Positions 23,086-28,437 of a DNA stretch of 64,000 nt are shown piece after piece. Made by a program: the position numbers and the translations under genes. How positions within the stretch are numbered: the first letter of the stretch is position 1; every line of letters starts with the position of its first letter. The stretch is from Puniceibacterium sp. IMCC21224 (lineage in GTDB: Bacteria; Pseudomonadota; Alphaproteobacteria; Rhodobacterales; Rhodobacteraceae), in contig NZ_LDPY01000001.1 in assembly GCF_001038505.1 (NCBI RefSeq), positions 2,728,001-2,792,000 on the forward strand, written 5' to 3'. Below the pieces are notes generated by a model that made no database searches, was not told where the DNA came from, and saw only the letters and a list, made by a program, of their open reading frames with translations.

Positions 23086-23409
23086 TCACATCTTGGCGGG
23101 GGCCTCCTGCGTGTTGGCTTTGGCTCAATTTCCTGCGGCACCTGTTCAATCCGACCCCACGTAAACTCTCCAAGATCCCTCCCGCACCGCAGCAAGCGCG
23201 CAAAGCCTGATCAGAAAGGCGCTCGCGCCCTTCTCAAGTGCTGGATTTCTGCGCTCGCGAACGGATATCTTTCAACGGAGGCGGAGGGAAGGTGACATTC
23301 GCTACGGTCTGAATCAAGGCCTGCTGTGCCGAACTACACAGAGCCGCAAACCTGTCCTCAACAGCAGGACCACTCCACAATATGTTAAGCCGCCACAATA
23401 TATGGCTTA
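23086..23409. other. Intergenic region between DUF6324 gene and IS debris
   Basis: These 324 bp contain no convincing gene. A short imperfect hairpin (AGAAAGGCGC / GCGCCcTTCT, about 23213-23234) could end the DUF6324 transcript, though no T-run follows. The distal part turns A/T-richer toward the TA dinucleotide (23408-23409) where the IS end begins. No copy of the tRNA-Ser 3' end was found here. Confidence 0.5.
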
Positions 23410-23873
23410 GGCTCAGGACCCATTGATATTCGCTTCGCTGCGTGATTCACGGCTCAAAAAGTGAGCGGTGAACATGTCTGATCTAATCTGGTTATCCGAC
23501 GCGCAGATGGCGCGTCTTGGCCCCTACTTTCCCAAATCCCACGGCAAGCCACGTGTCGATGACAAGCGCGTTCTTAGCGGGATTATCTTCATCAATCGCA
23601 ACGGCTTACGGTGGCGTGACGCGCCGAAGGAATACGGCCCACACAAAACGCTCTACAATCGGTGGAAACGCTGGAGTGACAAGGGTATCTTTGCCCAGAT
23701 GATGGCCGGTCTGGCTGCTGATCACGGCGAACAGACGACGGTCATGATCGACGCCACTTACCTCAAAGCTCATCGAACGGCGTCCAGCCTGGGCGTCAAA
23801 AAGGGGGGCGTGGTCGCCTGATTGGTCGAACCAAGGGTGGCATGAACACGAAACTGCACGCCATCTGCGACAG
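23410..23873 (+). mobile_element. Left part of an IS5-family (IS427-like) insertion sequence, truncated
   Basis: The element begins after TA with GGCTCAGGACCCAT, the same terminal sequence as the fuller copy at 25749-26659. It is identical to that copy except for one noticed synonymous base, until it breaks at 23873 within codons for HAICD and joins IS3-type sequence. The right half and right inverted repeat are missing. Confidence 0.88.
23474..23873 (+). pseudogene. Truncated IS427-type transposase
   Basis: Frame A (SDLIWLSDAQMARLGPYFPK..., GLRWRDAPKEYGPHKTLYNR, VMIDATYLKAHRTASSLG) ends at a stop just after 23820. A slippery run of five A and six G at 23798-23808 would shift ribosomes by -1 into the RGRLIGRTKGGMNTKLHAICD frame, as in this IS group. 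The protein is cut there, so DDE residues beyond the first Asp are absent and the copy is inactive. ATG 23474 is preferred to GTG 23468. Confidence 0.88.
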
Positions 23874-24264: not shown

Positions 24265-24555
24265 TCAGACGCCCAGTGACCAAAGGACTGAGAACCGCCA
24301 CCAAACCGGCGCTGCGAGGGCGTTGCCGCTTCGTAACTGCTTACGACTTTTGGTTCGGCGGAATGCCGTTTGAAGTGATCGAGGAATCTCATTTGAGTGA
24401 CCTTGTACCTATGGCCATCATCCGTAATGAATGGAAAAATTAATTCAAACAACTACTTAGCCACATTAAGTGTGAAACCCTCAACGCTCACGCCTTTCGG
24501 TGCTGAACTTTGAGTTGGGCGGCATCGATCCAGAGGAACCATCCGGGCAGATTCA
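24265..24555. other. Uninterpreted spacer in the island
   Basis: These 291 bp hold no recognisable gene. Around 24360-24440 the composition is more A/T-rich than the flanks, and a short plus-strand frame encodes MPFEVIEESHLSDLVPMAII, which I do not recognise. It is probably fragmentary mobile DNA. Confidence 0.4.
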
Positions 24556-24651
24556 AGCTGCCGTCGCGACACACGACTGGGGTGGTGGCCAGCTTGCTGC
24601 GGATCGCCGGTCTGGACTGGGCCGCACCGGATTACACGAACCTGTGCCGAC

Positions 24652-24689
24652 CACTGTCCGGTAGTGCATGTTTGCATGCATGAGAGGAG
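24652..24689 (+). repeat. Small structured repeat, copy D (38 nt)
   Basis: The left block is CACTGTCCGGTAG, the centre is hairpin TGCATG-TTTG-CATGCA (perfect six-base stem), and the right block is TGAGAGGAG. Relative to the other copies, two C-to-T changes in the left block keep G-U pairing, and one change occurs in the right block. It interrupts the IS5-group transposase remnant, in the opposite orientation to copy C relative to the gene. Confidence 0.75.
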
Positions 24690-24752
24690 ACCGAAGACAC
24701 TCGCCGTCCAGATCCCGAAGCGGCGCGCCGCTGGTCCGTTGAGCCTGCTGAT

Positions 24753-24793
24753 CCCCTCTCGGGCATTGCCGCGCAACACCCTGCCGGGCAGCG
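24753..24793 (-). repeat. Small structured repeat, copy C (41 nt)
   Basis: Read on the minus strand: CGCTGCCCGGCAG, hairpin GGTGTTGC-GCG-GCAATGCC (eight pairs including two wobble), then CGAGAGGGG. It splits the codons between LLI and DNTGIK in the IS5-group transposase remnant, with a net insertion of about 40 nt. Confidence 0.82.
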
Positions 24794-24995
24794 GACAACA
24801 CCGGTATCAAGTCTCTGGGCGATGGCGCCTTCTCAAAGTTCGCAAGCCAAATGAGTCCTGCGTCCTTGCCGGGCGATGGATACGCTGCCTCACGGCCTTG
24901 GGGGGAACGCATCGCCGCGACAGACCCCGACCGTCAGGCTGGCGAAATCCATATTCGCATCGCCTGAGACCAACCGGGAAAGCGGACGCCATACC

Positions 24996-25658
24996 TCACG
25001 CTTGCGATGCGCAACAACGCTCCGCAGTTGATTTGCGGCGCGCCAGACCAAAACCGCCAAGCGCAAAGATCAACATCAGCCCGGTTGCAGGCAGCGGAAC
25101 CGGGGCAAGAAATGAAGCTTTGACGTTATCGAACGCTGCATAGTTTCCGACGCGGCCAAAGACCACCCGATCAAAGCCTTCGATGTCAGACCAGCCATAG
25201 ATCGACGGCGCGTTAATGGCGCCTGTGTTCCCGGCTGTCACGAGGTTTCCGCCAAGATAGGTCGACCAAGTGTATGTGTGGTTGCCGGCAGCGTAACCTG
25301 ACCCAAGGGTCAATTCCAAGCCGTTGAATACGTTCCCGTCCGTTGCGGAAATCGTGTAATCGCCGGTTGAGTAAATATAGTTGCCAGTAAAGGGCGTTGC
25401 GCCACTATAAAAACCGGAGTGGCTGTGGCAACCGGCATAGCCGCAATAGTTGCCGGTATTCAGAAACTCCATTCCACCTTCGGTGTATGACGAGTTTGAC
25501 ACCGCAAGCGCGCTTTCAAAGCCCGCAAACGCATCTACTGTTGTGACGGCAGAGCCATCTCCGATTGTGAAAACCGTTGCAGCGCTCGCTGAGCTGGCCA
25601 AAAAGACCGCTGCGATTGCTGTGAAGATCCTTTTGTGGACTGTGGTCATCGCTACCAT
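24996..25658 (-). CDS. VPLPA-CTERM sorting-domain exported protein
   Basis: This protein of about 220 residues has an N-terminal signal peptide (HKRIFTAIAAVFLASSASAA) and a Gly/Thr/Asn/Tyr-rich beta body. The C-terminal sorting signal is VPLPATGLMLIFALGGFGLA followed by RRK, the alphaproteobacterial form of PEP-CTERM processed by an exosortase. No exosortase gene is in this window. Normally these end soon after RRK; here about 11 extra residues (STAERCC...) follow, perhaps because the 3' end was altered by the adjoining IS debris. AGGAAGGATACC precedes ATG 25658. Confidence 0.82.
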   Translation of the reverse strand: MVAMTTVHKRIFTAIAAVFLASSASAATVFTIGDGSAVTTVDAFAGFESALAVSNSSYTEGGMEFLNTGNYCGYAGCHSHSGFYSGATPFTGNYIYSTGDYTISATDGNVFNGLELTLGSGYAAGNHTYTWSTYLGGNLVTAGNTGAINAPSIYGWSDIEGFDRVVFGRVGNYAAFDNVKASFLAPVPLPATGLMLIFALGGFGLARRKSTAERCCASQA

Positions 25659-25878
25659 TTTGGTATCCTTCCTCTTTAGTGTGGGACACACCAACTTAAT
25701 ATCGGTCGATAAAGGCGCGTAAATTGTGACAGCTTTAAGGCTTCTCTAGGGTCAGGACTCATAGCCAGTAGATGACGAGTGCAGCGAGGGCGATTGCGGA
25801 GAGGAAGACTTTGGGGCAGCGGTCATAGCGGGTTGTGACACGCCGCCAGTCCTTGAGCCTGCCGAACATGATCTCGAT

Positions 25879-25920
25879 CACTGCCCGGCAGTGCATTGCG
25901 CAGCAATGTCACGAGAGGGG
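25879..25920 (+). repeat. Small structured repeat, copy A (42 nt)
   Basis: The left block is CACTGCCCGGCAG, the centre is hairpin CATTGC-GCA-GCAATG inside a 20-nt spacer, and the right block is CGAGAGGGG. It lies between codons for RRN(R) and IEIMFG of the IS427-type transposase, net insertion about 41 nt. Confidence 0.85.
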
Positions 25921-26118
25921 CGGTTGCGGCGTTTGTAGCGCCGCTTGTCGTATCGGATTGCAGTCTTGCGTTGCTTACGACCCGGGATGCAGGCGCGTAT
26001 CCCTTTGTCTTTCAACGCTTCTCTGAACCAATCAGCGTCATAGCCGCGATCCCCAAGAAGCCAGTCGACATCTGGCAGGCTGCTCAGCAGTGCTCGGGCA
26101 CCGATGTAGTCGCTGTAC

Positions 26119-26156
26119 CACTGCCCGGCAGGTGATGCTTGCATCGCCGAGAGGGG
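26119..26156 (+). repeat. Small structured repeat, copy B (38 nt)
   Basis: The left block CACTGCCCGGCAG and right block CGAGAGGGG are identical to copy A. The central hairpin is different, GTGATGC-TT-GCATCGC (seven pairs with one wobble). It splits the IS427-type transposase between VTAG and SDYIGAR. Confidence 0.85.
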
Positions 26157-26665
26157 TGACCGGCGGTCACGAACAGATTGAGCGGACGTCCATAGCTGTC
26201 GCAGATGGCGTGCAGTTTCGTGTTCATGCCACCCTTGGTTCGACCAATCAGGCGACCACGCCCCCCTTTTTGACGCCCAGGCTGGACGCCGTTCGATGAG
26301 CTTTGAGGTAAGTGGCGTCGATCATGACCGTCGTCTGTTCGCCGTGATCAGCAGCCAGACCGGCCATCATCTGGGCAAAAATACCCTTGTCACTCCAGCG
26401 TTTCCACCGATTGTAGAGCGTTTTGTGTGGGCCGTATTCCTTCGGCGCGTCACGCCACCGTAAGCCGTTGCGATTGATGAAGATAATCCCGCTAAGAACG
26501 CGCTTGTCATCGACACGTGGCTTGCCGTGGGATTTGGGAAAGTAGGGGCCAAGACGCGCCATCTGCGCGTCGGATAACCAGATTAGATCAGACATGTTCA
26601 CCGCTCACTTTTTGAGCCGTGAATCACGCAGCGAAGCGAATATCAATGGGTCCTGAGCCTAAGTT

Positions 26666-27010: not shown

Positions 27011-28197
27011 TTATCTCTTTTTTCCGGCTGCATAAAAACTCCAATGCGACATCAATTCCCGCCGCCGCTCCAACAAATCCGACCGCGCGTAAGCCCGCTC
27101 CACATCAGAACCGACTTGATGCGCCAGCGTCGCCTCTGCCACCTCGCGCGGTGCGCCCGCTTCTTCCCCGGCCCAATCACGGAAGGTGCTGCGGAAGCCA
27201 TGCACGGTGTATTGCCCGCGCTCCATCCGCCGCATGAGCATCAGAATCGACATATTGGATAGAGGCCGGTGCCGCTTTTGCCCCTCAAACACAAATTCCG
27301 ACGCCATCGCCTTCATCGGCTCCAGCACCCGCAATAATTCATCCGTAAGAGGAACCCGATGCTGGACCCCGCCCTTCATCCGCGCCGCCGGTATCGTCCA
27401 GAGCCGCGCGTCCAGATCCACCTCATTCCATGTCATGCCCAGCACCTCGGACGTGCGACAGGCGGACAAAACCGTGAATTGCAGCGCCTTTGCCGCCGTG
27501 GCGCTGCGTCCCTCCAGTTCGGCATAGAAGGCCGGAATATCGCGCCAAGGCATCGCGTCGTGATGCGTCACCTTGACCTTCACCTTGGGCAGAACCCCGG
27601 CCTCTTTGACCGCCGTTACCGGGTTTTCGCCATCCCGAAACCCGCGCGACCGACCCACGTCCAGCACCGTCTTGATACGCTGCGCCAGCCGCCGCGCGGT
27701 TTCATGCTTGTCTGCCCAGATGGGTGACAGGCACATCAGCACCTCAGGTTGCCCGATGCTATCAACCGGCATCCGGCCAATCTTGGGAAAGGCATAGTCG
27801 CGCAACGTGTTCAGCCATTGCGCGCCATGCTTGGCGTTTTTCCAAGTGGGCATCCGGTCAATGTGAACCTGCTGTGCCAGTTCCGAGAATGTGGGGATCT
27901 GGCGCTCTGCATTGAAACGCGGGTCAGGCCGGTCAGGCCGGTCTTTGCCATGCGCCGATATTCCAGCGCCCGCTCGCGCGCCGCGTTGAGTGTAACCACA
28001 TCGGCACCGCCCAAACCAAAGTCGGTGCGTAGCGGCGCGCCCTTGGCGTTTTTCTGGCCCTTGACCGTGACACGGACAATCCAGCGCCGCGCGCCGGACG
28101 GGTCCACCACCAAATACAGACCGGCCCCGTCGCCGTGACGGCCCGCGCCCAGGTTCTCCACCAATTTCTTGGTCAGCTTGCCGCCAAGTGCCGCCAT
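27011..28197 (-). pseudogene. Tyrosine-type integrase (P4-like), frameshifted
   Basis: The N-terminal DUF4102 arm-binding region (KLVENLGAGRHGDGAGLYLV, then RRWIVRVTVKGQK) is in one frame from ATG 28197. The core and catalytic domains are in another frame from about 27920 onward (PRFNAERQIPTFSELAQQVH...). Catalytic residues are present: Arg in SACRTSEVLG, HGFRSTFRDW, and Tyr in ERAYARSDLL. The break is at a 9-bp tandem duplication with a one-base loss around 27921-27944. Start to tRNA-Ser 3' end is 150 bp, the normal position for a tRNA-targeting island integrase. Confidence 0.85.
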
Positions 28198-28347
28198 CCC
28201 GCATACCACCTTCCGTACCACGCAAGGAAAGCATACTGGCAAAATTCAAACAAAGCCAACAAAACCGAACAACCAACAATTCTTGAAGGGATTCAAGGCA
28301 TTTAGGTAGGTCTAAGCTGGAATGTTAAATTGGGTAAAAACCACCAT

Positions 28348-28437
28348 TGGCGGAAGCGGTGGGATTCGAACCCACGGACGAGTCTCCCCGTCGCTGGTTT
28401 TCAAGACCAGTTCCTTAAACCACTCGGACACGCTTCC
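28348..28437 (-). tRNA. tRNA-Ser (TGA), island attachment site
   Basis: This 90-nt class II tRNA on the minus strand has CCA encoded. The acceptor GGAAGCG pairs CGCTTCC. The anticodon loop CTTGAAA reads TGA between CTGGT and ACCAG. A long variable arm is present, and the T arm is TGGG-TTCGAAT-CCCA. Its 3' end faces the integrase, so it is the likely attB. I saw no second copy of its 3' end inside the window. Confidence 0.95.

Follow-up and report, generated by a model that had tools for sequence, protein, structure and literature searches.

The window analyzed here, a stretch of 64,000 nucleotides from Puniceibacterium sp. IMCC21224, carries four copies of a short repeat, all of them inside IS5-type transposase genes, the host of copy 1 being recognized by eye (Table 1). 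The initial annotation had reported four such repeats, with no mention of their host genes, and all four were found within a few bases of where it had put them. Copies 1 and 2 share a transposase remnant; a related context of the same site cluster (L106) holds an ORF that matches DDE_Tnp_1_5. Copy 1 is antisense to the surrounding remnant, as judged by eye, and it counts as a weak member, recognized by eye, because of its low score. Copy 2 occupies a recurrent codon site, between LLx and DSTG, at which 15 contexts form one cluster. Copy 3 lies between the codons CGC and ATC of the transposase gene that also holds copy 4. The reading frame of that IS shifts at the inserts, and G000:C1 holds a second, partial copy of it near 90.5-90.8 kb, likewise bearing both inserts. 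The exact inverted duplicate listed in Table 1 is not an empty site, because it duplicates only the IS part beside the inserts. An Rfam search over the window returned only two tRNAs at gathering and, near the copies, nothing beyond a mir-350 match below threshold (E 0.71). Single arms of the repeat, with one mismatch allowed, occurred in the window near chance level. Incidentally, the region 27011-28437 holds a long minus-strand ORF, by eye a phage-type integrase, beside a tRNA-Ser gene (28348-28437), which suggests that the IS cluster of the window sits in an island anchored at a tRNA gene.

Table 1. Features of the window related to the repeat. Strands of the copies are given in element orientation, CCCTCTC first; the covariance model rests on sequences of relatives, with that of copy 3 itself among them.
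Feature	Positions	Strand	Evidence
Copy 1, degenerate 37-nt element	24652..24688	-	9.4 bits, E 0.1 in 3 kb, filters off
Copy 2, 40-nt element	24754..24793	+	45.2 bits; sense in IS5-type transposase remnant
Copy 3, 41-nt element, perfect bulged hairpin	25879..25919	-	68.5 bits; empty homologues
Copy 4, 37-nt element, same IS5 transposase gene as copy 3	26119..26155	-	35.1 bits; empty homologues
IS5-type (DDE_Tnp_1_5-like) transposase remnant with copies 1 and 2	24500..24900, approximate	+	ORFs; site cluster shared with L106
IS5-family element with copies 3 and 4	25749..26659, limits by eye from ends	-	sequence; plasmid relatives annotated IS5 family transposase
First transposase ORF of the IS at 25749..26659, 117 aa	26248..26601	-	ORF list
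Second transposase ORF piece, 88 aa, between copies 4 and 3	25878..26144	-	
Exact 468-bp inverted duplicate of window 26196-26663	23406..23873	+	sequence comparison

The unit has the layout 5'-CCCTCTCG-hairpin-CTGCCGGGCAGYG-3', with a fixed arm on either side, and is mostly 37-43 bp long. From 257 sequence records we extracted 245 contexts and 180 distinct units, the commonest length being 41 (84 distinct sequences), followed by 37, 40, 43, 39, and 38. Hairpin shape was mostly preserved while its sequence varied. The stem consisted either of 3 bp and 6-8 bp separated by a bulge and capped by a triloop, or of 7-8 bp capped by a tetraloop. The 41 class took the first form with one unpaired base (mostly A) and 6 bp before the triloop, and in the 37 and 39 classes a tetraloop typically closed a stem of 7 or 8 bp. 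Pairing was poor in a minority of units. The first stem pair was G-C in 82 of the 83 41-mers. In the 41-mer alignment, the hairpin was flanked by CCCTCTC and CTGCCGGGCAG, with no GTAG, the search pattern itself having demanded these arms. Their invariant look is partly due to that demand, and degenerate copies exist.

Conserved flanks with compensating stem changes had been claimed from the four window copies, and the wider set strongly supported this. Across the 9-bp hairpin of 83 distinct 41-mers, 95.0% of pair cells were standard as against 70.6% after shuffling, and both sides had changed in 142 cells as against 37.9 (sd 4.5), levels that 0 of 500 shuffles reached in either case. The covariation score was 0.559 for the 41-mers and 0.146 for shuffles. 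Five covariation measures were used, and the two coarser ones were weaker: eight pairs showed double changes as against 6.8 (reached by 69/500 shuffles), and there were 22 further pair types as against 17.6 (2/500). When the 3' side was shifted by 1 to 3 columns, pairing fell to 49.4% or below. The claim that every copy keeps its hairpin held for copy 3, which is perfect, but less well for copy 2, whose stem has two mismatched pairs. In DNA folding, four strands taken alone exceeded shuffles in stability only to a modest degree (z -1.3 to -2.3).

Two side observations concern the architecture. At ~895-930 of one context (L125) we noticed two left arms fused in inverted arrangement, CCCTCTCG..CGAGAGGG, which looks like the outcome of recombination between two units at the hairpin. 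There is also a short class of 34 nt with a GGCGGC/GCCGCC stem (L039, L133, L183, L194, and L220), in contexts that look intergenic by eye, several of them of the form ..CTC|GG...

That the repeat is no chance repeat, as the initial annotation had argued, was borne out by its distribution. In the 5.56-Mb genome of Puniceibacterium sp. IMCC21224, the strict pattern matched 7 places, three of them in the window, and the reversed pattern 0; the covariance model gave 26 matches at E up to 0.05. Strict copies occurred in 47/295 genomes of the host family (own genome included), with 0 for the reversed control in all of them, so that the repeat is dispersed. In a class-wide sample, 3/289 genomes matched; as four of the 289 belonged to the own family, this left 1/285 outside it. 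A scan of named genomes yielded at least 120 stretches; among the matches listed, titles were nearly all Rhodobacterales or unplaced alphaproteobacterial bins, the exceptions being a Labrenzia, a Rhodospirillales bin, and two contigs titled Enemella. The latter (L241 and L246, titled Enemella evansiae) may bear a wrong title. Three further records among the matches listed, from Kitasatospora, Gastranaerophilales, and Synechococcaceae (L202, L206, and L224), had no hairpin. They were excluded from the target count and, with L039, from the scan of unassigned ORFs, and still stand within the 245 contexts. L022 was dropped from host-site analyses, and L046, which looks like chance, was in early sets only and is outside the 245. 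As for plasmids, 103 records were similar to one 42-base query, led by the genera Pseudosulfitobacter, Sulfitobacter, Phaeobacter, and Leisingera; Dinoroseobacter shibae DFL 12 and Ruegeria pomeroyi DSS-3 were also represented. Eight viral contigs matched, and an annotated phage collection gave only two matches, both partial and weak.

Host genes were mostly transposases. With seeds of six IS families, 168/245 contexts were assigned to transposase genes (IS5 72, IS3 64, IS481 14, IS21 12, IS1182 3, IS630 3). The junction itself lay in transposase sequence in 142/245 contexts, with same-locus seeds and near-identical matches left out; an earlier count of 144/245 had included seeds some of which came from these very contexts. 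The background was 34/1000 random positions at transposase sequence; it was drawn solely from the own genome (400 kb), and the contexts came from many genomes. Other contexts involved IS66, IS91, and further transposase families, and ordinary gene families were also met nearby. In the own genome, all 26 model matches lay at most 500 bp from transposase-gene sequence: a seed match was found within 500 bases for 17/26, at the junction for 13, and the other nine fell in two IS91 genes, six copies of one IS1182-like element, and one IS66 gene. The IS1182-like IS carries the unit in all 7 of its own-genome copies that cover the site, four of which share an internal gap in the match. This indicates that the IS spread with the unit aboard, helped in trans or by some other route, and that part of the copy number of the unit stems from IS amplification.

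Could such a distribution arise from random insertion, with transposases merely being the places where it is tolerated and IS amplification doing the rest? Most other genes would be broken by the unit, and some inserts have indeed been copied along with their IS. Yet, by eye, single dead IS copies hold several elements, up to about five units with degenerate ones included, and after collapsing the contexts to 153 site clusters, 98 were still IS-assigned. Nor does the CGA content set the hosts apart, at 21.4 per kb in host flanks versus 21.7 in the window. We regard this explanation as a rather doubtful one, although of some weight. A bolder idea is that Rhodobacterales, or an element serving them, have a counterpart of repeat-directed silencing and steer hairpin insertions into IS transposase and phage genes, breaking them repeatedly. 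Its signature would be hot spots shared between hairpin classes, some five units per dead IS copy, and a strong excess over random positions. We hold it to be improbable.

Empty sites revealed how the unit is inserted. When the joined flanks were compared with homologous empty DNA, insertion proved clean, near C^GAY, and left the target unduplicated. L098, which is occupied, and L214, which is empty, agreed at 92.5% over 200 bases with no gap, and L236 and L170, both from Puniceibacterium antarcticum, at 97.7% over 128 bases, a longer comparison of this pair showing a further length difference beside the site. An own-genome copy identical to copy 4 (L001) agreed with L165 at 92.5% over 199 bases with one gap. 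A duplicated target was absent from all the empty-site pairs read. In some empty sites, the base at -1 differed or one base had been gained or lost, so the exactness of the junction is high but not perfect. Among 135 site representatives, position -1 of the target was C in 112, +1 was G in 105, +2 was A in 81, +3 was T or C in 105, and +4 was G in 78. Read on the opposite strand, a sequence of about CRTC comes before the element.

The unit itself moves, as is indicated by one identical 41-mer present at 11 different host sites. One 37-mer was present at 7, and the sites, judged by 12 flanking bases on each side, were mostly in different genomes. Within a single genome (G250), an identical 41-mer occupied two different sites (L067/L069 and L068). 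Conversely, different hairpin classes shared one host site, for example the LLx-DSTG site of IS5-type transposases described above, so the target is likely to include hot spots. Close strains gave no case of transposition at a single genomic locus. Replication-strand bias was examined on 24 chromosomal copies only. A search for a kilobase-sized autonomous version, in which left and right arms were listed separately in 7 genomes and looked over for pairs, gave no convincing arm pair. As a side remark, comparison of L076 with L049 showed a deletion in an IS5-type gene that resembles, by eye, recombination between two elements in one IS.

We then considered what the unit does to its host gene. 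Cases were testable when both sides were framed and the length was not a multiple of three. Cutting the unit out restored the transposase frame in 36/67 such cases, where chance would give ~22. With the unit left in place, the frame was kept in 12/67, below the one third expected. As these counts show, most insertions break the host gene. Neither version fitted 23 of the 72 contexts that could be framed, which we attribute to decay of dead genes. Scoring the flanks by codon usage for the host frame gave a weak result in 110/112.

These counts bear on the possibility of a coding spacer kept through in-frame reading, as with the palindromic elements of Rickettsia. Read-through does exist: it was found in a 417-aa ORF of an own-genome IS91 Y2 transposase, in an IS3 transposase that is annotated as a gene in Sulfitobacter pontiacus W028 although it contains a copy, a somewhat degenerate one, and in two of three viral contigs (L249, L253, and L255) whose copies differ in hairpin but occupy one and the same position in a cytosine-5 methylase gene. 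But the low proportion of kept frames speaks against it, as does the antisense position of nearly half of the assigned site clusters, and we consider a coding spacer very unlikely.

An insert acting at the RNA level, either a translational bypass element (byp) or a mini-intron that keeps the host IS active, would agree with fixed ends around a variable hairpin inside coding sequence, with the tendency of the frame to be restored by cutting out, and with the own-genome IS whose 7 copies all bear the insert. Orientation, however, was random with respect to the host gene: the 153 site clusters comprised 52 sense, 46 antisense, and 55 without assignment, while per context 100 were sense and 68 antisense. 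This disfavors both intron and bypass. Besides, by eye, the codons at the junctions of copies 2 and 3 mismatch as take-off and landing codons, and among 60 of the 103 plasmid matches, 53 overlapped no listed gene and 2 lacked annotation (PLSDB omits pseudogenes). The chance that an RNA-level insert is the right answer is thus, in our judgment, slight in the extreme. Translational bypass had been the reading first favored, as the early copies were mostly sense and between codons; it was given up once antisense copies proved about equally common. The codon phase of those early copies may well be a by-product of the C^GAY target. Accordingly, where the initial annotation had left the choice between a structured mobile element and an RNA-level one, the mobile alternative was strongly supported and the other disfavored.

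REP-type repeats had been proposed as the nearest analogy, together with a look for a RAYT in the genome. The analogy holds for size and shape only, and the presence of a hairpin with a bulge likewise resembles REPs, but most contexts were assigned to transposase genes, and the right arm is not a REP tag. A REP-like element could be moved by a RAYT or by an IS200/IS605 Y1 transposase that recognizes a bulged single-strand hairpin. Y1-type enzymes use a short target on the 5' side, and the sequence of about CRTC before the element on its other strand is compatible with this. In addition, TnpA-REP recognizes bulged or perfect REP hairpins, according to the portion of PMC8266576 available to us.

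Enzyme co-occurrence was analyzed in 13 genomes with at least 2 strict copies and 12 with none, hand-chosen from the 295 family genomes. Y1_Tnp (PF01797), the RAYT type, gave no match in the own genome or in 11/13 element-rich genomes; it occurred in 2/13 versus 0/12, that is, 2/25. The two Y1 loci, the only ones checked for linkage, had no element copy in the stretches examined. The absence of Y1, along with a stem sequence that is nearly free, disfavors the REP/RAYT explanation, which we rate as quite improbable. The other families were reverse transcriptase (PF00078), in 7/13 element-rich versus 3/12 element-free genomes, Y2, in 6/13 versus 1/12, and IS110, in 10/13 versus 4/12; the IS110 co-occurrence may only follow IS richness. 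None of the four families was present in all carriers among the 25 genomes, and four of the 13 element-rich genomes lacked Y1, RT, and Y2 together. Copies can be relics, so the absence of an enzyme today is no proof that it was never used.

Taken together, clean ends, the lack of duplication, random orientation, and identical units at many sites are best accounted for by a mobile DNA unit, and we think it probable that the repeats are mobile DNA elements of very small size that form one non-autonomous family. A trans-acting enzyme would recognize the sequence of the arms and the shape of the hairpin, probably in single-stranded DNA; stems kept by shape between fixed arms suggest such handling of a folded single strand. 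The unit would be inserted into mobile DNA, usually breaking a transposase frame, and hitch-hiking on IS copies would then multiply it further. If this is right, a very small mobile DNA unit exists, of ~40 bases, in which two short arms enclose a hairpin whose sequence is almost free and whose main niche is other mobile elements, and it offers a clean, countable system for studying how structure-defined DNA hairpins get inserted. The 180 natural variants constitute a ready set for finding the enzyme, and the element may partly explain the broken state of some roseobacter IS genes.

We recognized no publication describing the element in a partial literature search, with subscription journals mostly outside it, and the family is seemingly undescribed; PMC5082802, as far as its accessible part goes, concerns other repeats. 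Among known systems, MITEs are likewise non-autonomous, tiny, and dispersed, but the ends of our unit are not mutual inverted repeats and no target duplication accompanies it. The byps of Magnusiomyces mitochondria and of T4 gene 60 are short gene inserts with fixed ends and a hairpin, which act in the sense strand. The unit is like them in its fixed ends and hairpin and differs in occurring on both strands. GTAG REPs also keep an often bulged hairpin by compensatory change; here there is no GTAG tag beside the hairpin, and Y1 is missing from 11 of the 13 element-rich genomes chosen. GTAG and CGTC REPs alike are short palindromic repeats with conserved tags in the accessible text of PMC3733652. 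The same text describes CGTC REPs as predominating in Alphaproteobacteria, sometimes intragenic and without a linked transposase, with a stem of 8-9 bp almost always starting A-T, a loop of 4-5, a short CCA-like tail, and a CGTC/TGTC/CCTC tag. Measured against that description, our unit has a G-C stem base, a loop of mostly 3-4, the tail CTGCCGGGCAGYG, and transposase genes as its main hosts. Rickettsia palindromic elements, too, are palindromic mobile inserts inside coding genes of Alphaproteobacteria; in the available part of PMC10969869 they measure ~150 bp and often lie in frame in unrelated metabolic genes, whereas the present units measure 37-45 bp, usually break the frame, lie mostly in mobile DNA, and occur in both orientations. 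Since the repeat lacks at least one tested defining feature of each of these nearest kinds, we file it as a new family within the small palindromic mobile elements, one with unusual hosts and not a REP.
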